Of a stretch of DNA of 64,000 nucleotides, positions 30,800 through 45,212 are shown piece by piece. The notes beneath the pieces are model-generated. The model ran no database searches. It saw only the letters and a list, made by a program, of their open reading frames with translations, and was not told the DNA's origin. A program made the position numbers and the translations under genes. The stretch comes from Streptomyces sp. NBC_01429. GTDB lineage: Bacteria > Actinomycetota > Actinomycetes > Streptomycetales > Streptomycetaceae. The stretch is from positions 7,219,501 to 7,283,500 of the forward strand of contig NZ_CP109599.1 in NCBI RefSeq assembly GCF_036231945.1, given 5' to 3'. Each line of letters opens with the position of its first letter. Position 1 is the stretch's first letter.

Positions 30800-31140
30800 C
30801 TTCCGCCTCCTGTAGCTCTCACTGCTGCCATTTTCCTCCCTTTCCGGCGAAACGGAGTAAACGGAGGATATGGAAGGGCCACGGAAGGCCCGGTGACGCT
30901 CCTGTCCCGCCCGGAGCGGGCCGCCCCTGCGTCGCCCGTCTCTAGAGGCACGGACGGCCCGTCTGCCAGGGGCGCACAGTGGCGCACTGCTGTACGCGGG
31001 GGCTCGCGCGGTGGCGAGAAGTGCCTCCCGTGCTGCCGGTGTTGTGTTCCTCACTTTATGGGGCCGGGCATTGAGGTAGGCGCGGTGTAGGTAAATGGCC
31101 ACCATGTGTGTGGGTAGGTGAAGGCGATAAGGAGGTGCGC
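30800..31140. other. Gene-free region between htpX and ramR
   Basis: 341 bases. It must hold the divergent htpX and ramR promoters. Segment 31030-31125 is less GC-rich than the surroundings and contains a GGTAGG motif twice (TTGAGGTAGGCG near 31075 and GTGGGTAGGTGA near 31110), which could be a regulator site. No hairpin or small gene was recognised. Confidence 0.4.
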
Positions 31141-31746
31141 ATGATCAGAGTTCTCGTGGTGCACAAACTGGGTCTGTTTCGTTCGGCCCTGGTGGCGTTA
31201 CTCCGTCCCGAGACGACTCTCGATGTGTCGTCGGCGTCGGGGCGTACGGCATTTCGCGGGGCCTACGGTGTTCCCCCGCATGTCTATGTGGCCGACATCG
31301 ACTGTCTTGATTCTCCCGGCTACGAGGAAGAGACCGGTCTCACACGCGATGACCTGGGCTACGATCCGGCCCTTCTGGTCCTGGCAAGCTCACGGAAACC
31401 AGGAGCTTTGCGCAAAGCTTTTGACGCGGGTGCGCTCGGATACGTCAGCAAGGACGGGGAGCCGGGGAGATTAGTGGAAGGCATCCACAAAGTCGCGCGA
31501 GGCGAGCGATTCGTCGATGAAGCACTGGCATTCGATTTTCTCCAGGCGGCGAAGATGCCGCTGACCCCGAGAGAACTCAGCGTCCTCGCGCTGGCCGCGG
31601 AGGGGGCCCCGATCGATGAAATCGCGAGATCACTGCATCTGTCCAACGGCACGATACGCAACTATCTGGCCGCCGCGATACGGAAGGTGGGCGGCCGGAA
31701 CCGTTTGGACGCCATACGCATTTCACAGGGCGCGGGCTGGCTGTGA
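31141..31746 (+). CDS. ramR: RamR-type response regulator, activator of the SapB operon
   Basis: 201 aa. N-terminal receiver-like domain (MIRVLVVHKLGLFRSALVALLR), with the acidic pocket at VYVADIDCLDSPG and a conserved lysine in YVSKDGEPG, then a LuxR/NarL helix-turn-helix (LTPRELSVLALAAEGAPIDEIARSLHLSNGTIRNYL). Length and position beside ramCSAB match RamR/AmfR. A perfect AAGGAGGT precedes ATG 31141. Two leucine TTA codons (31198-31200 and 31471-31473) make it dependent on the bldA tRNA. Codon use is visibly less GC-rich than that of its neighbours. No cognate kinase is nearby, as for known RamR. Confidence 0.9.
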   Translation: MIRVLVVHKLGLFRSALVALLRPETTLDVSSASGRTAFRGAYGVPPHVYVADIDCLDSPGYEEETGLTRDDLGYDPALLVLASSRKPGALRKAFDAGALGYVSKDGEPGRLVEGIHKVARGERFVDEALAFDFLQAAKMPLTPRELSVLALAAEGAPIDEIARSLHLSNGTIRNYLAAAIRKVGGRNRLDAIRISQGAGWL

Positions 31747-31850: not shown

Positions 31851-33761
31851 TCAGCCTGCCGGGCCCGCGGCGCTCCGGTCCCCGGCCCCCTGCCAGTGCC
31901 CCACCAGATCGCGGTAGAGAGCCGACCGTGTGAGCAACTCGTCGTGCGTCCCGTACGCGGGCCTGGTCCCGTCCAGTACGAGGACACGGTCCGCCCTGCG
32001 CGCCGACGACAGCCGGTGCGCGACCACGATCAGCGTCCCCGGCCGCTCGGCGAGGGCCAGCTCCGCGCGGGCCTCCGCGACCGGGTCCAGATGGCAGGTC
32101 GCCTCGTCCAGGATCATCAGCGGGGCGGGGGAGACATAGGCGCGGCACAGCGCCAGTGACTGGCGCTCTCCCTGCGACAGCCTGGCGGGCTCGACCAGGG
32201 CGTCCAGCCCGCCCAGCCTGCTGATCAGCTCGCCGATGCCCAGCGCCTCGACGGCCCGGACCAGAGCCGGCGGCGACGCCCCTGGCGCCAGCTGGAGCAG
32301 GTTCTCCCGCACCGTGCCCGTGAACACGTACGCCTGCTGCGGGATCAGCACCCGCAGCGCCGCCAGCTCGGACGGCGTCCGGCCGGCCACCGGCTCTCCC
32401 GCCAGGAGGACGGTTCCCCGGTCGGGCGCGAGCAGCCCCGCGAGGACGCCGGTGAGCGTCGACTTGCCGATGCCGCTCGGCCCCACCACCGCGATGTGCT
32501 CGCCCGGCCCGACAGCCAGGTCCAGCCCGGCCAGGACCGGCGGCGCGCCCGGCCCGTACGCGAGGGTGACGGAGCGGATCTCCGCCGCCGGAGGGACGGG
32601 CGGGCGGTGGGGGAGGGGATCCGGCCGCGTACCGCCCCGTCTCGGCGCGGGTGGCCCGGCGTGCACCGCTGGAGTCACTGGTGCCGGTGGTACCGCTGGT
32701 GTCGGTGATACGGCCGGCGCGGGCGTCCCCGGCGTTGGCGGCTTCATGAGGGGCGCGTCCGGCGCCGCGTCCTCGAACCGCTCCAGCACCACCAGCAGCC
32801 GCGTACCGGCCGCGCCGAGGGCGGTCATCAGCGTGTGCAGCGCGGGCAGCAGGGCCTGTACGAGATAGGTCAGCGCCCCCATCAGCGCCCCGGCCGTGAT
32901 GCCCTGCCGCAGCAGCCAGGGGGTGGCGACCAGCAGCACGACCACCGGCAGTTGACCGGCCACACCCAGCGCCAGCGCGCGCACGGCCGCCCAGCGGGCC
33001 AGGACGCGCGATGTGCGCTCCCCGGCCGCGATCAGTCTCTCCGTACGGTCGGCCGCCTCCGCCCGCGTACCGCAGGCCGCGATGTCCCGCAGTCCCGCGC
33101 CGAGCGCGCCCGCCCGGTCGGCGACGGCCTCGTCGGCGTCCAGGAAGGCGCGCTGCGCGGCGGCCATCGGGGCCAGCGTGGCGAGGAACAGCGCCAGCCC
33201 CAGCGCCAGCGGACCCACGACCACCAGCAGGAGCTGGGGCGCCAGCGCCAGCAGCCCGGCCAGCGCTCCCACGGCGGTGAAGACGAAGGAGCGCGCGGTG
33301 AGCACCAGTCCGGCGAAGCTGTCCCGGACGATCTCCGTCTGATGGGTGAGCCGCGAGACGGCGCCGCTGTCGGTACGCGCCGGGTCGGCCATCGCCCGGC
33401 GCAGATACTGGTTCACCGCCCTGCGCACCAGCGCGTCGCGCAACGGCTCCACCAGCGCGGCCAGTTGGGCGAAGACCCCGCGCACCAGCGGTCCGCCGAC
33501 CAGGATCGCCGCCGCGGCGACGGCCAGCCACATCAGGCCCGTCCGGGTGTCCCCTGCCAGAAAGCCCCGGTCGAGCGCCCGCGCCAGGCAGTAGCCGCCC
33601 AGGAAGGTCTGCGCGGACTCCAGCAGCGACCAGCCGCCCAGCCTGATCAGCGCGCCTTTCCTGCGCAGCAGGAAACGACGGCCCTCGGGCAGCATCCGGC
33701 GCAGCGTCCCCCGGCCGTCCCGCGGCCCCTTCTCCACGCCCGTCCGGGCCGGGGCCGTCAC
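31851..33761 (-). CDS. ramB: ABC transporter (membrane-ATPase fusion), RamB-type
   Basis: 636 aa. N-terminal transmembrane domain of about six helices (to about 330), a proline-rich linker (TPGTPAPAVSPTPAVPPAP, about 345-395), then an ATPase domain: Walker A GPSGIGKST, Q-loop LIPQQAYVF, signature LSQGERQ, Walker B LMILDEATCHLD, H-loop VAHRLSS. The GTG at 33761 overlaps the ramA stop (GTGA). With RamA it forms the exporter assigned to SapB in S. coelicolor. Confidence 0.88.
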   Translation of the reverse strand: MTAPARTGVEKGPRDGRGTLRRMLPEGRRFLLRRKGALIRLGGWSLLESAQTFLGGYCLARALDRGFLAGDTRTGLMWLAVAAAAILVGGPLVRGVFAQLAALVEPLRDALVRRAVNQYLRRAMADPARTDSGAVSRLTHQTEIVRDSFAGLVLTARSFVFTAVGALAGLLALAPQLLLVVVGPLALGLALFLATLAPMAAAQRAFLDADEAVADRAGALGAGLRDIAACGTRAEAADRTERLIAAGERTSRVLARWAAVRALALGVAGQLPVVVLLVATPWLLRQGITAGALMGALTYLVQALLPALHTLMTALGAAGTRLLVVLERFEDAAPDAPLMKPPTPGTPAPAVSPTPAVPPAPVTPAVHAGPPAPRRGGTRPDPLPHRPPVPPAAEIRSVTLAYGPGAPPVLAGLDLAVGPGEHIAVVGPSGIGKSTLTGVLAGLLAPDRGTVLLAGEPVAGRTPSELAALRVLIPQQAYVFTGTVRENLLQLAPGASPPALVRAVEALGIGELISRLGGLDALVEPARLSQGERQSLALCRAYVSPAPLMILDEATCHLDPVAEARAELALAERPGTLIVVAHRLSSARRADRVLVLDGTRPAYGTHDELLTRSALYRDLVGHWQGAGDRSAAGPAG

Positions 33762-35584
33762 CGGCCGCGCTCCCCGTGCGCCAAGGGGCCGGGGCACGCC
33801 GCGTCCGACGCCGCGTCCGTCCCGGTATCCGTATCCGTCCCCGTACCCGTCTCCGCCTCCGGCACCGCGAACACCGCGCGGTACGCGGGGATCCGCCACA
33901 GTTCCGCGTGCGGCCCCACCGCCCGTACCCGTCCCTCCTCCAGCCAGACCACCAGATCGGCCCGGACCGCCGAGGAGAGCCGGTGGGCGATGATCAGCCG
34001 GGTGCCGGCCCGTACGTCCCGGGCGAGCGCCCGCTCCACCTGGCGCTCGGTGACGGTGTCCAGGCTGGACGTCGCGTCGTCGAGGATCAGCAGCCGTCCG
34101 GCGTGCGCGAAGGCGCGCGCCAGCCCCAGCCGTTGCAGTTCCCCGCCGGACAGCGGCGCCTCGCCCGGCGGGGTGTCGTATCCGCGCGGCAGCAGAGTGA
34201 CGAACGCGTCCGCGCTCGCCGCGCGGGCCGCCGACCGTATACGGCCGGGGGAGGCCCGCTCGGCCCCGGCGGCCAGCGCCTCGCCGATCGAGTCACCGAA
34301 CAGCACCGGCCGCTCGAACGCGTAACCGACCTCGCGGCGCAACGGCCCGTACGCCACGGACTCCAGCGGTACGCCGTCGAGCAGCACCCGGCCCCCGTCC
34401 GGATCGGTCAGCCGTCCGGCGACCGCCGCGAACGTCGACTTGCCGGCGCCCGAACGGCCCACCACGGCCGCCGAGACGCCGCCGGGGATCGTCACGTCCA
34501 CCTCGGTGAGCAGCGGCCGGCCGTCCCGTACGACCCGTACGCCCCGCAGTTCGAGCGTGCCAGGACCGTCGGCCGGGAGGGTTTCGGCGCCGTACGTCAT
34601 GACCGGCAGCTCGGCCAGCCCGGCCGTTCTGCGGGCGGCGGAGCGGCTGCGTACGAGCGCGCCGATCAGCCCGGCCCCCGCGCCGATCCCGGCGGCCAGC
34701 GTCGCGTAGCGGGAGGCGGCCAGCAGGTCGCCGACGCTGATCCGGCCCGCCGTGAGCGCCACCCCGCCGACTGCCAGCACGCCGGTCGTCAGCAGCGGCA
34801 TGAGGACACCGCCGCGCGCGACGGCCCGGCCGTGCACCCTCCACATCCGCCGCCCCTGGACGGCGAGTTCGGGCAGGGGCGCCAGGACGCGGTCGCGTTC
34901 GCGTTCCGCCGTACCGGCGGCGGCCACCGTACGCGCGCCGTCCACCACCTCGACCAGCCGGGAGGCGATGTCGGCCTGGACCAGCTGGTAGCGCGCGACG
35001 CTGTCGGAGGTGCCCCGGGCGAAGGCGCGCACCACCAGCGCCAGCAGGGGCAGCCCGGCCAGGAACGCGACGGCCGTCCACACGTCGATGAGGAACAGCG
35101 CGACGATCGCCCCGGCCGGAGCCAGCAGCGAGGCCGCCAGCGCCGCCGCGCTCACCGGCGCCGTACCGGCCTCCGTGGCGTTCGCGGACAGCCGGGTCGC
35201 CAGGTCGCCGGGCGTCAGCCGCGCGGCGCGCTCCGGCGGGGCGGCCAGCAGCCCGGTCAGCGCGCGTATCCGCAGCCAGGCGGTCGATCTGGCGCTCGTC
35301 ACCCCGCTCAGCAGGGCCTCCAGCGCGTCGAGGAGCACCTCGGCGGTGATCAGCGCGACGCATACGGCCAGCCAGGATCCGGCCGCGCCGTCCCGGCCGA
35401 GCGAGAGATCGAGCGTCCGGCCGAGGACCGCGGGCAGCGCGAGGGACGCGCCCGCCGAGGCGGCGGAGCAGACGAACACCGCCGTCGTACGGCCCGCGCT
35501 GTGCCGGGCGGCGCCGAGCAGCAGGCCGGTGCCGGGGCTCGCCGCGGCGCGTTGCTCGCGGGCGCCACGAGGTGAGAACACCAT
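33758..35584 (-). CDS. ramA: ABC transporter (membrane-ATPase fusion), RamA-type
   Basis: 608 aa. Six-helix membrane domain (to about 310) and ATPase domain: Walker A GRSGAGKST, signature LSGGELQ, Walker B LLILDDATSSLD, H-loop IAHRLSS. Chosen start ATG 35584, with GGAGGAGG about a dozen bases upstream. The C-terminus is a Thr/Asp/Gly run (ETGTGTDTDTGTD) from a hexanucleotide-like repeat (33820-33860). Lies after ramS, separated by a strong hairpin; half of the heterodimeric SapB exporter. Confidence 0.88.
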   Translation of the reverse strand: MVFSPRGAREQRAAASPGTGLLLGAARHSAGRTTAVFVCSAASAGASLALPAVLGRTLDLSLGRDGAAGSWLAVCVALITAEVLLDALEALLSGVTSARSTAWLRIRALTGLLAAPPERAARLTPGDLATRLSANATEAGTAPVSAAALAASLLAPAGAIVALFLIDVWTAVAFLAGLPLLALVVRAFARGTSDSVARYQLVQADIASRLVEVVDGARTVAAAGTAERERDRVLAPLPELAVQGRRMWRVHGRAVARGGVLMPLLTTGVLAVGGVALTAGRISVGDLLAASRYATLAAGIGAGAGLIGALVRSRSAARRTAGLAELPVMTYGAETLPADGPGTLELRGVRVVRDGRPLLTEVDVTIPGGVSAAVVGRSGAGKSTFAAVAGRLTDPDGGRVLLDGVPLESVAYGPLRREVGYAFERPVLFGDSIGEALAAGAERASPGRIRSAARAASADAFVTLLPRGYDTPPGEAPLSGGELQRLGLARAFAHAGRLLILDDATSSLDTVTERQVERALARDVRAGTRLIIAHRLSSAVRADLVVWLEEGRVRAVGPHAELWRIPAYRAVFAVPEAETGTGTDTDTGTDAASDAACPGPLAHGERGR

Positions 35585-35734
35585 CGGGGAGAAGTCCTCC
35601 TCCGGAGCGGGACCGGAACGGGGTGTTCGAGGGGCGGGGGCAGGGGTCGGGGTTCTGGGCTCGGAGTGAGGGGGAGTGAGGGTGTGGGGTGGGGCGGATC
35701 GTGCGCCGGACCCGCCGATCCGTGACGCGGGGGA

Positions 35735-35764
35735 GGCCCCGGGCGCGCTCACGCGCCCGGGGCC
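35735..35764 (-). terminator. Hairpin between ramS and ramA (partial terminator)
   Basis: GGCCCCGGGCGCG (35735-35747), loop CTCA, CGCGCCCGGGGCC (35752-35764): a perfect 13-bp GC stem just after the ramS stop. It would let ramC-ramS be transcribed in excess of ramA-ramB, fitting the need for much precursor and little exporter. Confidence 0.7.
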
Positions 35765-35774
35765 CCGCCGTACG

Positions 35775-35903
35775 TCAGTTACAGGTGGTGATGCTCAGGC
35801 TGCTGTTGCCGCAGAGGAGCAGGCTCGCGCGGCTTCCGGTCTCGACGTCGCCGATGGCCTCTTCCTTCGGGGTCTCCAGCGACTGCAGGTCGAGAAGGTT
35901 CAT
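35775..35903 (-). CDS. ramS: SapB lanthipeptide precursor
   Basis: 42 codons, too short for routine gene finding. Leader: MNLLDLQSLETPKEEAIGDVE. Core: from Thr22, TGSRASLLLCGNSSLSITTC plus a final Asn. Cys31 and Cys41 are preceded by the Ser residues (Ser27, Ser34, Ser37) that RamC dehydrates to form the two lanthionine rings and dehydroalanines of SapB, the surfactant that lets aerial hyphae break the surface. The core is identical to S. coelicolor SapB as recalled, except Asn for Asp at core position 12. AGAGGA precedes ATG 35903; the gene lies between ramC and ramA, as in known ram/amf clusters. Confidence 0.93.
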   Translation of the reverse strand: MNLLDLQSLETPKEEAIGDVETGSRASLLLCGNSSLSITTCN

Positions 35904-35918
35904 GATTGTTCCTCTCAT

Positions 35919-38606
35919 TCATGGGGACGTTGTCTTGCCACGGCTCGTGGGATGAGCCGGCTCATGGGCCCGCCGGAGCGGCGGGAGGAACGGCAGGCAT
36001 GCCTGCCGGTCGGGCGAGGAGGCGGCGGCCAGTGCCAGGAGCGCGCCGGCGGTGCCGGTCGACAGATCCATGGACAGCCGCATCATCTGCTCGCCGGGAA
36101 AGGCCAGTTGGCCCCGGTACGTCATGGCGTGCCAACTGAGGGCGTCGACCTGACGCCGCACGTCGGCCGCGCCGGTGCCGGGCCCGGCCGCCGTGGTGCG
36201 GCTGAGGTACAGCACCATTCCGGCGGCGCCGCGGAAGAGCCCCGGCTGCGCGTAGAACGTGGCCTGCGCGGCCCGTACGATCTCGCCGCGCGCCCGCTCG
36301 AACGCGTCGTCGGCGCGGTGGGCGAGATAGTCGTCCAGCACCATCCCGATGCCCACACTGCCCGCGCCCAGGTACGGCATGGTGCGCCATCCCTCGTCGA
36401 CCTGGAGCGCGCCGCCGATGCCCTGTTTGCAGCGGGCCAGATCACGGCGCAGCGCGTCGGCCGCCAGGTCCAGCAGGGCGCCGTCGCCCGTCCGCTCGTA
36501 CAGCCGGATGAACAGCAGCGCGACGCCGCTCGCGCCGTGCAGCAGACCGGCGCGGGGCAGACCCCCACCGGGCCGTCCTGGGCCGCCGGACCGATCGGCG
36601 CCGCCCGCCAGCGACGCGGCGGCGAGCTCCGCGCAGCGCAGGGACGCGTCGCGCAGCGCGCTCTCGCCGGAGGCCGCGGCGAGCGCGTCGAGCGCGAGAC
36701 CGAGCCCGGCGGCGCCGCTGTGCAGATCGGGCGGCATGTCCTGCCATGACTGACCGAGCATCAGATCGGCCAATTGCAGGGCCGCTTGACGGTGACCGAG
36801 CCGGTCCAGGCTCCAGGCGACCCCCGCCAGCCCGTCGTAGAAACCCAGCGGGGTGCCCGACGCGGGCTCCTTGGCCCTCAGCAGCAGCCACTCCTCGGCC
36901 GGGGCGCTGCGCACGGCCGCGCTCAGGTCCAGCGCGTACAGCACCCCGGCGGCCCCGTATCCGAACGACAGGCCGCCGCCGGGCGTTCCGAACTGGGCGA
37001 TGTCACCGGGGAAGAAACGATCCTCCCTGTCCGGTGAGGCCGAGGACAGGATGGCCTTCACCAGGGAGTCGCGGCTGCGCGGCCAGTCGCCGGGCGCCAC
37101 CGGCAGATACGCGCCGGGGCGGGGTCGCCCCTCCGCCGCTTCCTCGGTGCCGCCGGGCCCGCGCGCCGCCGCCGCGCCGGGCTCGCGCAGGATCTCCGCC
37201 ACCGCCGCGTCGAGGAACGCGCGATCCACCGGGAACTGCTCCGCCACCACCTCGGCCAGATGCGCCGCCTTCCCGCGGTCGATGGCGAACAGGCTGGTCA
37301 GCGGGATGAACAGAGCGAGGCGCAGACAGGCGAGCGCGTAGCGGTCGACATCGAATCCGCGTCGGTCGGGCGGCGCCACGAACCCCGGATTGGCCACCGT
37401 CTGGCGCCCGTTGTCCTCGACGCGCGCCGCCGCCTCGAAGTCCAGCAGGACCACCGACGACTCGTCCTCGGAGACCATGATGTTGAACAGGTGCAGGTCG
37501 TTGAAGACCACTCCGCGCCCGTGCACGGCGGCCACGGCCTCCTCCACCAGGCGGTGGATCCGCAGCGCCCACGCGGTGTACTCGGCGAGCCGCTCGGCGT
37601 CCGGCTCCGCGTCGATCAGCGGATGGCGGCGGGCGAAGAAGGAGTTGAGCGGCTTGCCCTCGATGAATTCGAGGACCAGGAAGTGGTGGCCGCCGACTTC
37701 GAGACTGTCCCGGACCTCCGGGGTGCATCCCAGCCCCGACAGCCTTTCCAGCGCGGCCTGTTCGCGCCCCAGACGCGTCACCGCGTCGGCGCCGTCCGCC
37801 GCGAGTCCCGCGTGCGGTCTCGCCTCCTTGAGCACCACCTGCTCGCCGGTCTCCAGATGCCGGCCGACGTACACACCGCCGCCGTTGGAGAAGTGCAGCG
37901 CCCGCTCCACGCGGTACGGCAGCCCGGCCACGCTCATCGCGTCCCTGGCCACGAGGTGCGGACGCAGGAAGGCGGGCGGCGTGACCCACTCGGGTATGCG
38001 GAAGACCGGACCGCGCAGATCCGGAACGAGTCTGCCCTCGGCGTTCTCCACGGCGGGGCGCAGCAGCCCCTCGGCGTCGTAACAGTTCCGCTCGGTGAAG
38101 CTGCCGTAGCGCAGATGGACCGGTCCCGCGCCCCAGCGCAGATCGCTCAGGATGTACGGGCCGTCCTCGCCGGTCAGCAGCGCGTCCAGTTCGGCGGCCG
38201 TCACACCGCACTGCTCGTCGTCCGCCGGATAGACGGTGATGAACTTGCCGCTGGCCGCGCGGTCCGCGTACTTGGCGTTGCGGTTGTGCAGCAGATAGCG
38301 GCTCGGTACGAACTTGAAGGCCACGCGGCGCGGTACGCAGTACTCCATGACCCGGGCGAGAACCGATTCGGCGTTGTCGAGACGCGCCGATACATGGATC
38401 TTCCAGCCCTGGGCGGGCAGTGGGCGGTCGAGCGGACGCCAGGCCAGCCAGTCCCCGGCGCGGTGGCGCTGCCAGCCGACGGGCGCCGGCCGTTCGGCGG
38501 CTTCGTACAGCGCGCCCTGCCCGGTGGCGTCGGTGGACGCCGTCCGGTGCGGTGCGTCGTAGAAGTGCCGGTCCGCGTCGCAGAATACGGCGTAGCCCTT
38601 GTTCAC
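35919..38606 (-). CDS. ramC: RamC class III lanthionine synthetase (LanKC-type)
   Basis: 895 aa. Three parts: N-terminal lyase region (about 1-215; ADRHFYDAP, KFVPSRYLLHNRNAKYADR, KFITVYP); Ser/Thr kinase domain (about 235-480; lysine in VVLKEARP, catalytic loop VVFNDLHLFNIM, metal site VLLDFEAA); C-terminal LanC-like cyclase domain (about 530-880; FYDGLAGVAWSLDRLG, LHGASGVALLFIRLYE), lacking the zinc-ligand cysteines and histidine, as expected for class III. It phosphorylates and eliminates Ser in RamS and closes the thioether rings. GTG 38606 is preceded by GAAGGAG. First gene of the operon. Confidence 0.92.
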   Translation of the reverse strand: MNKGYAVFCDADRHFYDAPHRTASTDATGQGALYEAAERPAPVGWQRHRAGDWLAWRPLDRPLPAQGWKIHVSARLDNAESVLARVMEYCVPRRVAFKFVPSRYLLHNRNAKYADRAASGKFITVYPADDEQCGVTAAELDALLTGEDGPYILSDLRWGAGPVHLRYGSFTERNCYDAEGLLRPAVENAEGRLVPDLRGPVFRIPEWVTPPAFLRPHLVARDAMSVAGLPYRVERALHFSNGGGVYVGRHLETGEQVVLKEARPHAGLAADGADAVTRLGREQAALERLSGLGCTPEVRDSLEVGGHHFLVLEFIEGKPLNSFFARRHPLIDAEPDAERLAEYTAWALRIHRLVEEAVAAVHGRGVVFNDLHLFNIMVSEDESSVVLLDFEAAARVEDNGRQTVANPGFVAPPDRRGFDVDRYALACLRLALFIPLTSLFAIDRGKAAHLAEVVAEQFPVDRAFLDAAVAEILREPGAAAARGPGGTEEAAEGRPRPGAYLPVAPGDWPRSRDSLVKAILSSASPDREDRFFPGDIAQFGTPGGGLSFGYGAAGVLYALDLSAAVRSAPAEEWLLLRAKEPASGTPLGFYDGLAGVAWSLDRLGHRQAALQLADLMLGQSWQDMPPDLHSGAAGLGLALDALAAASGESALRDASLRCAELAAASLAGGADRSGGPGRPGGGLPRAGLLHGASGVALLFIRLYERTGDGALLDLAADALRRDLARCKQGIGGALQVDEGWRTMPYLGAGSVGIGMVLDDYLAHRADDAFERARGEIVRAAQATFYAQPGLFRGAAGMVLYLSRTTAAGPGTGAADVRRQVDALSWHAMTYRGQLAFPGEQMMRLSMDLSTGTAGALLALAAASSPDRQACLPFLPPLRRAHEPAHPTSRGKTTSP

Positions 38607-38720
38607 AGGCGCTCCTTCGGCTGATGACAGGGCCAACCGTGTCATCCCCCGGAAACGTCAGACAGTCGCCGATGTCACCTCCCGCCCGTGGACTACGCAC
38701 AGGTAACCCGGGCGCGACGG
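38607..38720 (-). promoter_or_regulatory. ramC upstream region
   Basis: It contains GATGACA (38623-38629) and its inverse TGTCATC (38640-38646), able to form a small hairpin just ahead of the ramC ribosome site. The RamR-responsive promoter should lie here, but no binding repeat was identified with confidence. Confidence 0.4.
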
Positions 38721-38792: not shown

Positions 38793-40526
38793 CTACAGCG
38801 CCGGGTAGGCGTTCTTCAGCAGCTCCTGGAACTGCGCGGAGAACCAGTCACCCGAGAGGGGTGCGTTGGCCAGCGCCCCGGACAGGTGGTTGTTGTTGCG
38901 CGGGTTGCCGGTGTACGTCGGGTCGCACATCCGGTCGAAGCCCTTGCCCTGGTCGTTCGGGATGGCCTTGCTCGCACCGTCGGACTCGCCCGGGGGCTTC
39001 ATCCAGACGTACGCGTCGATCCCGGTGGCGGGCGCAGCGGTCGGCCGCTGGCCGAGCCCGGCTCCGGACTGGTTGCACCAGTTGCCCAGGTGGATGCGGC
39101 GGTCGTAGCGTCCACCGTCCACATAGGTGTCCACACTGGTCTGGGCGCCCGGTCCGGTGGGCCGTGCCGTGCCGCCCCAGCCGTTGCGGGAGGTGTCGAT
39201 CAGCATGCCGATGTCCGACTTGAAGCCGACGCCGACGAGTTCCTGCCGGAACGCCTGGGCGAAGGACTGCTCGTCGACGTACCGGTTCCAGTCCACCCAC
39301 GTCGACTCACGGACCGACTTGCCGGCCACGCTGTCGTTGATGGTGAAGTTGTTCTCCTTCGTCGCACCGTAGTTGGCGGTGTTGACGATGAAGCCGGCCA
39401 CGTTGTCGACCGTGCCGCCCTCGGTGGTCGCGGCCTGCTTGAAGATCTGCGCGGACGGAATGAGGTTGTCGTCCCAGCCGAGCCAGCCGTGGTGTCCCGC
39501 GTCCACGTAGTTGTAGACGTTGGGGACGGCGCCGAGCTTCCGCAGCGCGTAGCCGACGCCCTTGACGTAGTTGCCGTTGGCCTTCATCACGTCGCACTCA
39601 GGGGTGGCGGTGGCCCGCGGCGAGACGTTGGTGACCAGGTTGGGCAGCGAGTCGATCTCGACCGTCGTCACGATGCGCAGGCTCGCGTACTTGGTGTCGG
39701 CGAGGATGGCCGCGATCGGGTCGATGTACTCGGTCTGGTAGCGGCCGATCTCCGTCGGGCCCAGCTCCCCGTTGGAGGCGAGCGCCGAGCAGTCACGGCC
39801 GGGCAGGTTGTAGATGACGAGCTGGACGACCAGCGGGCTGCCGGCCGCCTGGGTCAGGGCCGTGTCGAGGTGGGCGCGCAGCCCGCGGGCGCTGCTCGTG
39901 CCCTGGATGGCGGCGATCCGGTCCAGCCACACACCGGTCGGCTGGTTGGAGACCTTGCTGCCGCCCGGCTCGGCCGCCGCCTTCGCGGACCAGTCCGGGT
40001 TGACGTACACCTTGGCACCGGCGTACGGGTTGTCGACCTTGGCGCTCGGCCCGTCGGTTCCGCCGCCGCCGTCGCCACCGCCGCCGCCGCCCGAGACGTT
40101 GCAGGTCACCCCGTTGAGCTTGAACGTGGTCGGTATCGCGTTGGTCCCGGTGGCGTTGCCGTTGAAGCCGAAGCTCGCCGACCCGCCGGTGGCCAGGGTG
40201 CCGTTCCAGGCGACGTTGGTGGCGGAGACCGCCGTGCCGCTCTGGGTGATGGTGGAGTTCCAGCCCTGGGTCACCTGCTGGTTGCCGGCGAATCCCCACT
40301 CCAGCTTCCAACTGCTCACCGTGTCACCGGTGTTGGTGACGGCGACATTGGCGGAGAAGCCGCCGGACCAGGAACTCTGGATCTTGTAGTCGACGGTGCA
40401 GCCCGCCGCCGCCGCGCTGGCGGGCCCGCTCAGCGCGGTCGTCGTGCCGGCGACCCCGGCGACCAGGGCGAACGCGGCCAGGACCGCCGTCCTGGTCCGG
40501 CGCGGTGGAGAGGTGGTGCGGCTCAT
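38793..40526 (-). CDS. Secreted GH6 cellobiohydrolase with N-terminal CBM2
   Basis: 577 aa. Signal peptide about 1-38; CBM2 about 40-145 (CTVDYKIQSSWSGGFSANVAVTN, NLVTC-type end GVTCNV); Gly-rich linker; GH6 domain about 165-577 with VQLVIYNLPGRDCSALASNGEL and VTTVEIDSLPNLVTN, the acidic catalytic motifs, plus GWLGWDDNL. Length and loop content suggest the exo-acting type that releases cellobiose from cellulose chain ends. The ATG overlaps the GH5 stop (ATGA), so the two cellulases are translated together. Confidence 0.93.
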   Translation of the reverse strand: MSRTTSPPRRTRTAVLAAFALVAGVAGTTTALSGPASAAAAGCTVDYKIQSSWSGGFSANVAVTNTGDTVSSWKLEWGFAGNQQVTQGWNSTITQSGTAVSATNVAWNGTLATGGSASFGFNGNATGTNAIPTTFKLNGVTCNVSGGGGGGDGGGGTDGPSAKVDNPYAGAKVYVNPDWSAKAAAEPGGSKVSNQPTGVWLDRIAAIQGTSSARGLRAHLDTALTQAAGSPLVVQLVIYNLPGRDCSALASNGELGPTEIGRYQTEYIDPIAAILADTKYASLRIVTTVEIDSLPNLVTNVSPRATATPECDVMKANGNYVKGVGYALRKLGAVPNVYNYVDAGHHGWLGWDDNLIPSAQIFKQAATTEGGTVDNVAGFIVNTANYGATKENNFTINDSVAGKSVRESTWVDWNRYVDEQSFAQAFRQELVGVGFKSDIGMLIDTSRNGWGGTARPTGPGAQTSVDTYVDGGRYDRRIHLGNWCNQSGAGLGQRPTAAPATGIDAYVWMKPPGESDGASKAIPNDQGKGFDRMCDPTYTGNPRNNNHLSGALANAPLSGDWFSAQFQELLKNAYPAL

Positions 40527-41995
40527 GAGAGTCCCTTCAGATGGTCACGGAGTCCCACGCCGAAGGTGGTCGGCGTGCCGTTGTAGTCGCTGATCAGGGC
40601 GGGGCCCGAGGAACAGTCCCACGTGTTCCAGGTCCACCCGAGGTACGAGGCGCCGCGGCCGTCGAGCCAGGCCATGACCCGGTCGATATAGCCGTGCGCA
40701 CAGGTGTTCTCGCCGATCTCGCCCGCCACCAGCGGCACCTGTGCCAGTACCGGGGCGAGTTGTTCGTTCCAGCAGCTCTCGCTGGAACAGGTGTTGAAGT
40801 TGTACGTGTGCCAGGCGGCGGCGAGGTTGCCCGCCGGATCGCTCGGCCGGTACTGGAGCCACTGGCGCATGTCGTTCGCGTACGCCAGACCGGGTACCAG
40901 CACCAGGTTCTGGGCGCCGGTGGCCCGTACCGCGTTCACCAGGGACTGCATTCCGGCCACCTGGAAGTCGATCCCGGGGCAGCTGCCGCCGTCGCGCCAG
41001 CAGGTCCAGGCCGCGTCCAGGCTGGAGGTGGCCCGGTCCGGGAAGGGTTCGTTGAACAGGTCGAACACCACCGCCGGATCGCTCTTGAACGTCTCGGCGA
41101 CCGAACTCCAGAACGCCGGGGTGTACTTCGCGTTCGGCATCGGCTTCTGGCAGGTCGCGTACTCGGTGTCGGGGCAGTGGCTGTCGCCGCCCGTGTACTT
41201 CCCGTTGGTCCAGTGCAGTTCGACCACGGGGGTGATGCCGTGCGCCTCCAGTCCGGCCACGTAATCCTTCACCGCGTTGATGTAGTTGGCCCCGGCGTAC
41301 TCCGGTTTGACATGGGAGAGCCCGAGCCAGCACTCCTCGTTGAGGGGTACCCGTACGGTGTTCACCTTCCAGTCCGCGATGGCTTTCACGGACGCGTCGT
41401 CGACCGGTCCGTCGAAGAAGCCGTAGCCCTGGATGCACATGAACTCACCGCCGGAGCGGTTGACTCCGAGCATGCGGCGGGTGGCGCCGTTCGCGTCGAC
41501 CAGCTTGTTGCCCGAGACGTGGAGCTTCGGTGGAGCGCCGGCCGGGTCGGTGGGTGGGTCGGTCGGGTCACCGGAGCCCGGCTGCCCGTCGCACGTCGTG
41601 CCGTTGAGCTTGAAGGCGGCCGGAGCGGGGTTCGACCCCGACCACGAGGCGGTGAACCCGGCGCTGAGCGAGCCACCGGTCGGAATTGCGCCGTTCCAGC
41701 TCTCGTTGACGACGGTCACCGTCCGGCCGGACTGTGACCACTTGCCGTTCCAGCCCTGGGTCACCCGCTGACTTCCGGGGAAGTCGAAGGTGAGGCTCCA
41801 GCTCGCGACCGGCGATCCGTTGTTGGTCAGTGTGACGCCGCCCTGGAAGCCGCCGTCCCACTGACTCGTGGCGCTGTACTCGACCGTGCAGGTGGCCGCG
41901 GTTCCCGACGCGGCCGACTGCGGAACCAAGGCTGTGCCCGCCACGGCCAGGGCCGCGGCGGCCAGCAGCGCACAGAGGCGCGGTGGTGCTCGCAT
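40523..41995 (-). CDS. Secreted GH5 endo-beta-1,4-glucanase with N-terminal CBM2
   Basis: 490 aa. Signal peptide about 1-33; CBM2 about 35-135 (CTVEYSATSQWDGGFQGGVTLTN); short Pro/Asp/Thr linker; GH5 barrel about 150-490, acid/base in VVFDLFNEPFPDR, nucleophile in LVAGEIGENTC, substrate site LGWTWNTWDC. Cuts cellulose internally. AGGAG lies eight bases before ATG 41995. First gene of the GH5-GH6 operon, under a CebR-type operator at 42045. Confidence 0.92.
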   Translation of the reverse strand: MRAPPRLCALLAAAALAVAGTALVPQSAASGTAATCTVEYSATSQWDGGFQGGVTLTNNGSPVASWSLTFDFPGSQRVTQGWNGKWSQSGRTVTVVNESWNGAIPTGGSLSAGFTASWSGSNPAPAAFKLNGTTCDGQPGSGDPTDPPTDPAGAPPKLHVSGNKLVDANGATRRMLGVNRSGGEFMCIQGYGFFDGPVDDASVKAIADWKVNTVRVPLNEECWLGLSHVKPEYAGANYINAVKDYVAGLEAHGITPVVELHWTNGKYTGGDSHCPDTEYATCQKPMPNAKYTPAFWSSVAETFKSDPAVVFDLFNEPFPDRATSSLDAAWTCWRDGGSCPGIDFQVAGMQSLVNAVRATGAQNLVLVPGLAYANDMRQWLQYRPSDPAGNLAAAWHTYNFNTCSSESCWNEQLAPVLAQVPLVAGEIGENTCAHGYIDRVMAWLDGRGASYLGWTWNTWDCSSGPALISDYNGTPTTFGVGLRDHLKGLS

Positions 41996-42044
41996 GGAGC
42001 GACTCCTCAGGGCCGATACGCCGCCTGACGCGACGTATGACTGA

Positions 42045-42058
42045 TGGAAGCGCTCCCA
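42045..42058. promoter_or_regulatory. CebR-type operator upstream of the GH5-GH6 operon
   Basis: TGGAAGCGCTCCCA, one mismatch from the CebR consensus TGGGAGCGCTCCCA. CebR, a LacI-family repressor released by cellobiose, controls cellulase genes in Streptomyces. Confidence 0.85.
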
Positions 42059-42187
42059 CTGGTTGTGTTCGACGGTAGCGCCGAAGTGGCCTGAGTCAAC
42101 AGTCCAGTTGAATTCTTTTACCTCCGGAGTCGGCTGGACGTGCGTCTTGTTCAAAGTCTTGACAGGTGCACGTACCCGCTCAACGCT

Positions 42188-42201
42188 TGGGAGCGCTCCC
42201 A
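42188..42201. promoter_or_regulatory. CebR-type operator upstream of the GH48 gene
   Basis: TGGGAGCGCTCCCA, a perfect match to the 14-bp CebR palindrome, 54 bases before the GH48 start. Confidence 0.9.
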
Positions 42202-42254
42202 CTGGTTCGTATCCCCGCCCCCCACCCGCACCGGACCGCGAGGAGGACCCCTCC

Positions 42255-45212
42255 ATGCTCGGTTTACGAGGCTCCCCACCAGGCGCACCACCATCGCTCG
42301 GCGGACCCCGCCGCCGACGCGGCACCCGGCGGCTGCTCACCGCCCTGGCGGCCGCCCTGTCCCTCCCGCTCGCCATGACCGCGATCGGCTCCACGCCCGC
42401 GCGGGCCGCGGCGGTCCAGTGCGGCGTCGACTACAAGACCAATGACTGGGGCTCCGGCTTCACCGCCGACCTCACGATCACCAATCGCGGTACGGACGCC
42501 CTCGACGGCTGGACGCTGACCTACGGCTACGCCGGCAACCAGACCCTCACGAGCGGCTGGAACGGCACCTGGACGCAGTCCGGCAAGACCGTCACGGTCA
42601 AGAACGCCTCGCACAACGGGTCGATCGCGCCAGGGGCGGCGGCGACCACCGGCGCCAACTTCACCTACAGCGGCGCCAACGCCGCGCCCACCGTCTTCGC
42701 CGTCAACGGTGTCACCTGCGCCGGCGCCCATCAGCCGCCCATCACCGTCCTGAGCAGTCCGGCCCCCGGCGCCGTGTTCACCGCGGGCGGCACCATCCCG
42801 ATGGCCGCCACGGCGGCGGCCGCCGACGGCGCGGGGATCACCAAGGTCGAGTTCTACAGCGACACGACGCTGCTCGGCACCGACACCACCTCGCCGTACA
42901 CCTTCGACTACACGAACGTTCCCGCCGGTGATCACTCCCTGTACGCCAAGGCGTACGACGGCCAGGCCGCCTCGTCCGAGTCGACCCCGGTCGGGGTACG
43001 GGTCGTCGCGGGCCCCTCGCTGGTCGCGACCCCGGCCCAACTGGGCGTCCAGCAGGGGAAGACGGGCACCTTCGGGGTGAAGCTCTCCGCCCAGCCGACG
43101 GCCAGTGTGAACGTGGCCGTCGCCCGCACCGCGGGCAACACCGGCCTCACCGTCACCGGCGGCGGCAGCCTCACCTTCACCACCGCCAACTGGAACACCG
43201 CCCAGCAGGTGACCATCACCGCCGCGGCCACCGGCACCGGCGCCGCCACCTTCACCGCGACCGCGCCGGGACAGGCCAAGGCGGACGTCACCGTCACCCA
43301 GCTGGCCGCCGCGAGCACCTCCGACGCCCGGTTCCTGGAGCTGTACGGCAAGATCACCGACCCGGCCGCCGGTTACTTCTCGCCCGACGGCATCCCGTAC
43401 CACTCGGTGGAGACCCTCATCGTCGAGGCGCCCGACCAGGGCCACGAGACGACCTCCGAGGCGTACAGCTATCTGATCTGGCTCCAGGCCATGTACGGCA
43501 AGGTCACCGGCGACTGGACCAAGTTCAACGGCGCCTGGGACATCATGGAGAAGTACATGATCCCCACCCACGCCGACCAGCCGACCAACAGCTTCTACAC
43601 CGCGTCGAAACCGGCCACCTACGCGCCCGAGTGGGATCTGCCCTCGCAGTACCCCTCCCAGCTGAACAGCAACGTCCCGGTCGGCAACGACCCGATCGCG
43701 GCCGAGCTGAAGAGCGCCTACGGCACCGACGACATCTACGGCATGCACTGGATCCAGGACGTCGACAACGTCTACGGCTTCGGCAACTCGCCCGGCAAGT
43801 GCGAGGCGGGCCCGGCGGACAAGGGTCCCTCCTACATCAACACCTTCCAGCGCGGACCGCAGGAGTCGGTCTGGGAGACCGTGACCCAGCCGACCTGTGA
43901 CTCCTTCAAGTACGGCGGCAAGAACGGCTATCTGGACCTGTTCACCGGTGACGCCTCCTACACCAAGCAGTGGAAGTTCACCAACGCCCCCGACGCCGAC
44001 GCCCGGGTCGTCCAGGCCGCGTACTGGGCCTCGGAGTGGGCGAAGGAGCAGGGCAAGGGCAGCCAGGTCGCGGCCAATGTCGCGAAGGCCGCCAAGATGG
44101 GCGACTACCTCCGCTACGCCATGTATGACAAGTACTTCAAGAAGGTCGGCGACTGCGTGGGGGAGACCGCCTGCCCGGCGGGCAGCGGCAAGAACAGCTC
44201 GCACTATCTGCTCTCGTGGTACTACGCCTGGGGCGGCGCCACCGACACCTCGGCCGGCTGGGCCTGGCGCATCGGATCCAGCTTCAGCCACAGCGGCTAC
44301 CAGAACCCGATGGCGGCCTGGGCGCTCAGCTCGTACGCCGACCTCAAGCCCAAGTCGGCCACCGGCCAGCAGGACTGGACCACCAGCCTCAAGCGGCAGG
44401 TCGAGTTCTACCGCTGGCTCCAGTCCGCCGAGGGCGGCATCGCGGGCGGCGCGACCAACAGCTGGCAGGGCCGCTACGCCCAGCCGCCGGCCGGTACCCC
44501 GACCTTCTACGGCATGTACTACGACGAGGCCCCCGTCTACCACGACCCGCCGTCCAACCAGTGGTTCGGCTTCCAGGCGTGGTCCATGGAGCGCGTCGCG
44601 GAGTACTACCAGCAGACCGGTGACAGCGCGGCCAAGGCCGTGCTGGACAAGTGGGTGAGCTGGGCGCTGTCCAAGACCACCATCAACCCGGACGGTACGT
44701 ATCAGATCCCGTCGACCCTCCAGTGGTCCGGCAAGCCGGACACCTGGAACGCCACGACGCCCGGCGCCAACACCGGACTGCACGTCACCGTCGCGGACTA
44801 CACGAACGACGTCGGCGTGGCCGCCGCGTACGCCAAGACCCTCTCCTACTACGCGGCGAAGTCGGGGAACACGGCCGCCAGGACCACGGCCAAGGCCCTG
44901 CTCGACGGCATGTGGGACCACCACCAGGACGCCCTGGGCATCGCGGTCCCCGAGACCCGCGCCGACTACAGCCGCTTCAACGAGCCGGTGTACGTACCGA
45001 GCGGCTGGACCGGGACCATGCCGAACGGCGACGCGATCGGCTCCGCCTCCACCTTCGCCTCGATCCGCTCCTTCTACAAGAGCGACCCGGCCTGGTCCAA
45101 GGTCGAGGCCTATCTGAAGGGCGGCGCCGCGCCGACCTTCACCTATCACCGGTTCTGGGCGCAGGCGGACATCGCGCTGGCGCTCGGCTCGTACGGGGAT
45201 CTCTTCGAATAG
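42255..45212 (+). CDS. Secreted GH48 reducing-end cellobiohydrolase with N-terminal CBM2
   Basis: 985 aa. Signal peptide about 1-53; CBM2 about 55-155 ([22 protein letters not shown]); Ig-like Big domain about 160-255 ([18 protein letters not shown]); a second beta-domain about 258-350; GH48 (alpha/alpha)6 barrel about 355-985 with the acid region [27 protein letters not shown] and [11 protein letters not shown] processive exocellulase acting from the reducing end; it works together with the GH6 and GH5 enzymes encoded divergently. AGGAGGA precedes ATG 42255. Regulated by the CebR site upstream. Confidence 0.94.

Follow-up and report, generated by a model that had tools for sequence, protein, structure and literature searches.

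A ramC-S-A-B operon in Streptomyces sp. NBC_01429 encodes a form of the class III lanthipeptide SapB with asparagine at core position 12. The variant is genuine, departs from this well-known peptide by one residue, and is rare within its genus and recurrent outside it. The operon lies in the 64,000-nucleotide stretch of contig NZ_CP109599.1 analysed here (the window) and is of normal make-up, a textbook cluster apart from position 12. With a probability of about 0.8, this is a normal ram cluster encoding the natural variant [Asn12]SapB, a change that is most likely tolerated and of little functional consequence.

The ramS gene and the ram operon

Translation of both strands revealed a 42-codon ramS gene plus stop codon at 35775-35903 on the minus strand, with the product MNLLDLQSLETPKEEAIGDVETGSRASLLLCGNSSLSITTCN; the plus-strand translation of 35775-35903 shows no resemblance to RamS. 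The sequence-only reading, made without database searches, had found a 42-codon ramS between ramC and ramA at these coordinates without giving a strand, and both the position and the identity of the gene are upheld, by the translation and by profile matches over the whole length of the precursor (NCBIfam SapB_AmfS_lanti, 67.1 bits with a cut-off of 25; Pfam RamS, 64.7 bits with a cut-off of 24.3). As it exceeds both model cut-offs, the precursor belongs to the SapB/AmfS family of class III lanthipeptides. The border between leader (residues 1-21) and core (residues 22-42) was placed from SapB, which we take to apply here, giving the core TGSRASLLLCGNSSLSITTCN; codon 33, which is core position 12, reads AAC (Asn; 35805-35807, minus strand). 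The LLDLQ leader motif is present, and the core contains two S-x-x-S-x-x-x-C units, motifs described for a related subgroup in excerpts of PMC13380574. An alternative in-frame ATG upstream at 35918 would yield 47 amino acids. The 42-residue start at 35903 is favoured, as the purine-rich GAGAGGA stands before this ATG and overlaps the one at 35918, and as the annotated S. fungicidicus orthologue has 42 residues. The gene is single-copy, with one match in its own genome both by protein search and by Pfam RamS search.

The gene encoding the class III lanthionine synthetase LanKC, ramC (35919-38645, minus strand; 908 amino acids), adjoins ramS, with its stop codon at 35919-35921 and the ramS start at 35903. 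RamC scores 1140.8 bits with NF038151 (cut-off 575) and comprises RamC_N, Pkinase, and LANC_like domains; another possible start is the GTG at 38606. Solved relatives of RamC exist, e.g., 8sam and 9ugq, but are of no help on position 12. Downstream of ramS, the minus strand encodes two ABC exporters, namely ramA (33758-35584), with membrane and ATPase domains and a likely ATG start at 35584, and ramB (31851-33761), the start of which is uncertain (GTG 33761, GTG 33737, or ATG 33695). Convergent to ramB is a ramR-like gene for a LuxR-family response regulator (31108-31746, plus strand), its real start probably being the ATG at codon 12; the product scores 48.3 bits for GerE, above the cut-off of 23.5, and 21.2 bits for Pfam Response_reg, below the cut-off of 30.2. 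The window thus has the pair of ABC transporter genes after ramS and the neighbouring response-regulator gene that are expected of a ram operon; ramC, the transporter genes, and ramR are described in excerpts of PMC4255298. The ram cluster of S. fungicidicus shows the same gene order and orientation, including the convergent regulator.

Codons 31 and 122 of the open reading frame listed for the ramR-like gene are TTA, and ramC, ramS, ramA, and ramB have no such codon. The two TTA codons fit the bldA control that excerpts of PMC4255298 report for clusters of the ram/amf kind. A strong GC-rich hairpin (35723-35777, minus strand) runs from the stop codon of ramS into the gap that separates it from ramA; the calculated folding energy of 35690-35777 is -65.1 kcal/mol (z -4.24), with none of 200 shuffles as stable. 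Inspection by eye revealed a similar inverted repeat at the same ramS-ramA place in S. corynorhini and in the related genome G225. It is possible that the hairpin serves as an attenuator or as a 3' stabiliser of the mRNA. Directly upstream of ramC on the same strand, 38793-42394 encodes two cellulose-binding cellulases, one GH6 and one GH5, each with a CBM2.

The Asn12 substitution

The annotated S. fungicidicus precursor (WP_003972313.1), MNLFDLQSMETPKEEAMGDVETGSRASLLLCGDSSLSITTCN, which we take to be the same as the S. coelicolor SapB precursor (the ramS product), is as long as window RamS and agrees with it in the leader motif, the pair of S-x-x-S-x-x-x-C units, and core positions 1-11 and 13-21, but carries Asp12 where the window has Asn. 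The core thus agrees with SapB in 20 of 21 residues rather than throughout, and the predicted peptide is, by its sequence, a SapB variant and not SapB proper. The single change proposed from the letters alone holds for the core; it does not hold for the whole precursor, the leader of which differs at three positions (F4L, M9L, and M17I). Counting duplicates, the position-12 codon is GAC in 141 of 141 Asp-form loci and AAC in 12 of 12 Asn-form loci, and therefore a single G-to-A transition separates the two forms.

Asp12 is the sole acidic side chain of the usual core, and its replacement by Asn raises the net charge by one, as the earlier reading had it: the calculated value is +1 for the window core and 0 in 91 of 105 Asp-form cores. 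Its description of the product as a more basic surfactant is correct for the calculated charge, while the surfactant part follows from chemical reasoning and any change in surface activity would be hypothetical. The calculated monoisotopic masses after four dehydrations are 2024.98 (Asn) and 2025.96 (Asp), making the Asn form ~0.98 Da lighter. Assuming that the SapB ring pattern of 3-10 and 13-20 applies, position 12 would be located between the rings.

Since one base separates this codon from one that hardly varies, a sequencing or assembly error, the former named in advance as a possible refutation, or a private mutation of the strain could be suspected. However, the separately deposited genome of S. 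corynorhini AC230 (L111) encodes a RamS identical to that of the window in all 42 residues, Asn12 included, from a ramS that differs by three codons, all synonymous, while the surrounding DNA is 89.2% identical over 4920 aligned bases and 95.1% over 3058. Because the same codon occurs in diverged DNA, a sequencing error is very unlikely and is rejected unless both records share one error, and an error or a private mutation together retain a negligible probability. The diverged DNA around an identical RamS also implies that the Asn form persisted during divergence, and the two strains probably represent different species, to judge from their DNA. However, with no more than three synonymous differences across 42 codons, the evidence of selection is weak.

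Distribution and history of Asn12

Among the genomes read of the window's genus, the Cys-Gly-Asp/Asn linker ends in Asp in 104 genomes and in Asn in one, the window's own, while other linkers comprise the AmfS-type Glu-Tyr/His/Phe in 32 genomes and Phe-Gly in one; a linker acid is kept in nearly all SapB/AmfS peptides surveyed in this genus. The peptides with a Glu-Tyr/His/Phe linker, which we presume to be AmfS of the S. griseus type, share the two-unit layout of the window peptide, and several also match Pfam RamS, but they differ in having Glu at position 11, Tyr, His, or Phe at position 12, and a core ending in Cys-Thr-Pro. The protein search of the genus matched 96 of 392 genomes, and precursors were taken from 95, none being picked out of G252; the family search matched 78 of 394 genomes, all 78 of which were read, and 24 of the 78 overlap the genus-search matches. 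With Pfam RamS, 206 of the 392 genus genomes gave a match, and 54 further genomes were read among the matches listed. The position-12 tally takes only precursors with a SapB/AmfS core and drops these 54 genomes, which encode other class III types; it also drops a few precursors from another Pfam RamS search and from the family search, and one locus (L020) was added by hand.

Outside the genus, Asn12 was found in four of four matched genomes of genus code g9, most likely Embleya, the carriers including E. scabrispora DSM 41855, E. hyalina, SID3343, and G403, and in PH10-H1, the one matched genome of genus code g11; SID3343 and PH10-H1 are recorded as Streptomyces sp. An exact-pattern scan of one genome per each of 84,980 species, which required CTN leucine codons and LLLCGN and so misses divergent Asn forms and may omit records close to that of the window, returned 15 matches. 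Six of the 15 are SapB-type Asn12 precursors (L102, L109, L111, L112, L114, and L116), belonging to S. corynorhini, PH10-H1, SID3343, E. scabrispora, E. hyalina, and Micromonospora qiuiae. One other match (L107, a Pseudonocardiales MAG) is another kind of peptide with a DLQ leader, terminating at CGN, and eight are frames without RamS-like sequence. With the window's own genome and G403, Asn12 is present in eight genomes. The sequence-only reading had allowed that Asn might prove common among reference sequences; this is the case outside the genus only (1 of 105 within it), and the variant, while real, is not private to this genome, being shared with Embleya, PH10-H1, M. qiuiae, and S. corynorhini.

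The SapB homologues of Embleya (L102 and L116) and SID3343 (L112) have Asn12 in the same linker as the window but differ from it in a Gly-rich leader end and other C-terminal residues, and E. hyalina has Asn at core position 4. In M. qiuiae, two ramS genes stand in tandem (L109, 3422-3847), the first with Gln4 and Asn12 and the second with Arg4, Asp12, and a C-terminal Lys. The charge of Asn forms is not one-directional, as those of E. hyalina and M. qiuiae lack Arg4 and have a net charge of 0, and that of G403 lacks Arg4, has a C-terminal Arg, and reaches +1. Arg4 is absent in three of eight Asn12 genomes and in 11 of 105 Asp12 precursors, related rows being counted apart, and salt-bridge or charge compensation, i.e., loss of Arg4 together with Asp12, finds no support (Fisher p = 0.059). 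The protein search of plasmid and phage records yielded no phage match and three matches in Streptomyces plasmids, the best of them (S. fungicidicus) being an Asp form. In G168, two class III precursor genes with equal scores lie in opposite orientation ~15 kb apart (contig 29, 696075 and 711614), possibly a duplicated cluster.

On a rapid maximum-likelihood tree built from 112 C-terminal portions of RamC, the Asn label needs at least three changes, forced by starred branches; without M. qiuiae, we read two. The row of M. qiuiae is a long branch joined to another long one and is labelled Asn although its locus has both forms. The Asn groups are the window with S. corynorhini (SH-aLRT 99), the Embleya rows, and M. 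qiuiae, while PH10-H1 is placed near the Embleya rows in an unresolved fork. The next neighbour of the window and S. corynorhini is G225 (SH-aLRT 99), the cluster of which is 81-82% identical. Its ramS (L061, from 4001) encodes a normal leader and the core TASYASLLLCFGSALSLLTC, which differs from the usual core at seven of the first 20 positions, has no residue 21, and contains no acid. The linker acid is therefore absent in all three members of this small clade, and selection may have changed for the clade as a whole. A search of 296 genomes for further members of the G225 clade gave 17 matches, G225 itself and 16 already in the survey.

Possible consequences of the Asn form

In a normal ram cluster, the LLDLQ leader would be bound by RamC, the core serines would be dehydrated, and two lanthionine rings would be closed, after which the peptide would be exported by RamA and RamB. 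The amphipathic product would then lower surface tension, an activity of SapB given in excerpts of PMC9011353, and allow aerial hyphae to emerge. For [Asn12]SapB, we infer the ring pattern, export, and activity from SapB, and likewise infer the near-neutrality of the change, with GAC having probably become AAC, and the linker acid having been lost, in an ancestor common to the window strain and S. corynorhini. The variant is most likely tolerated because the linker residue would probably be outside the hydrophobic surfaces of the peptide. Yet, the near-invariance of Asp12 in the genus, together with the acid one place earlier in AmfS, argues for a linker acid being important as a rule, in which case its loss may have an effect.

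It could instead be speculated that the change is adaptive, the shift in charge from 0 to +1 adjusting how the peptide binds the anionic cell wall, chaplins, or some particular wetting surface, or rendering the morphogen lineage-specific. The recurrent loss on the RamC tree, the Asn in every matched g9 genome, the tandem Asn12 and Asp12 precursors of M. qiuiae, and the loss of the linker acid by another route in the sister G225 all agree with this view, as does the unusual divergence of amf-cluster genes, with a possible role in speciation, mentioned in excerpts of the review PMC4255298. However, a repeated single transition at a linker site is also expected under tolerance, the charge of Asn forms does not move in one direction (net 0 in E. 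hyalina and in the Asn form of M. qiuiae, +1 in G403), and the same excerpts state that species specificity of SapB-like peptides is not reported; an adaptive origin is thus considered unlikely, if credible. More speculatively, position 12 could be a recurrent switch of the net charge of SapB-type peptides, with the uncharged linker used by lineages such as Embleya and the S. corynorhini group and both forms kept by M. qiuiae as a matched pair, the two peptides acting differently on surfaces, with partner proteins, or between species, an idea to which we give a small chance. Asn12 could also act as a chemical precursor of Asp12, deamidation after export giving partly the usual SapB. Asn12 precedes Ser, or the lanthionine residue formed from it, and an Asn-Ser pair is a deamidation-prone context, but residue 13 is probably inside a lanthionine ring, and Asn-Ser deamidation, with half-lives of days, would lag behind the emergence of aerial hyphae, making this route, as judged from the encoded peptide, highly improbable.

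With tolerance of [Asn12]SapB as the preferred reading, Asn12 alone does not change what is known of how SapB is made or works. As a naturally occurring one-residue change in a classic morphogen, it makes the role of the linker acid addressable by one substitution, and the paired precursors of M. qiuiae offer a second natural comparison. A search of the open-licence literature by topic and by the core strings of both forms, which strings in figures escape, returned no paper on position 12, and the position is not discussed in the excerpts of PMC13380574, PMC9011353, PMC13152386, and PMC4255298. According to PMC13380574, the SapB/AmfS sequences listed by NCBI number more than 4,000. The 2022 survey PMC9011353, which in its excerpts gives conserved motifs of SapB homologues, may already contain Asn12 sequences, and the variant merits a line in surveys of SapB diversity.
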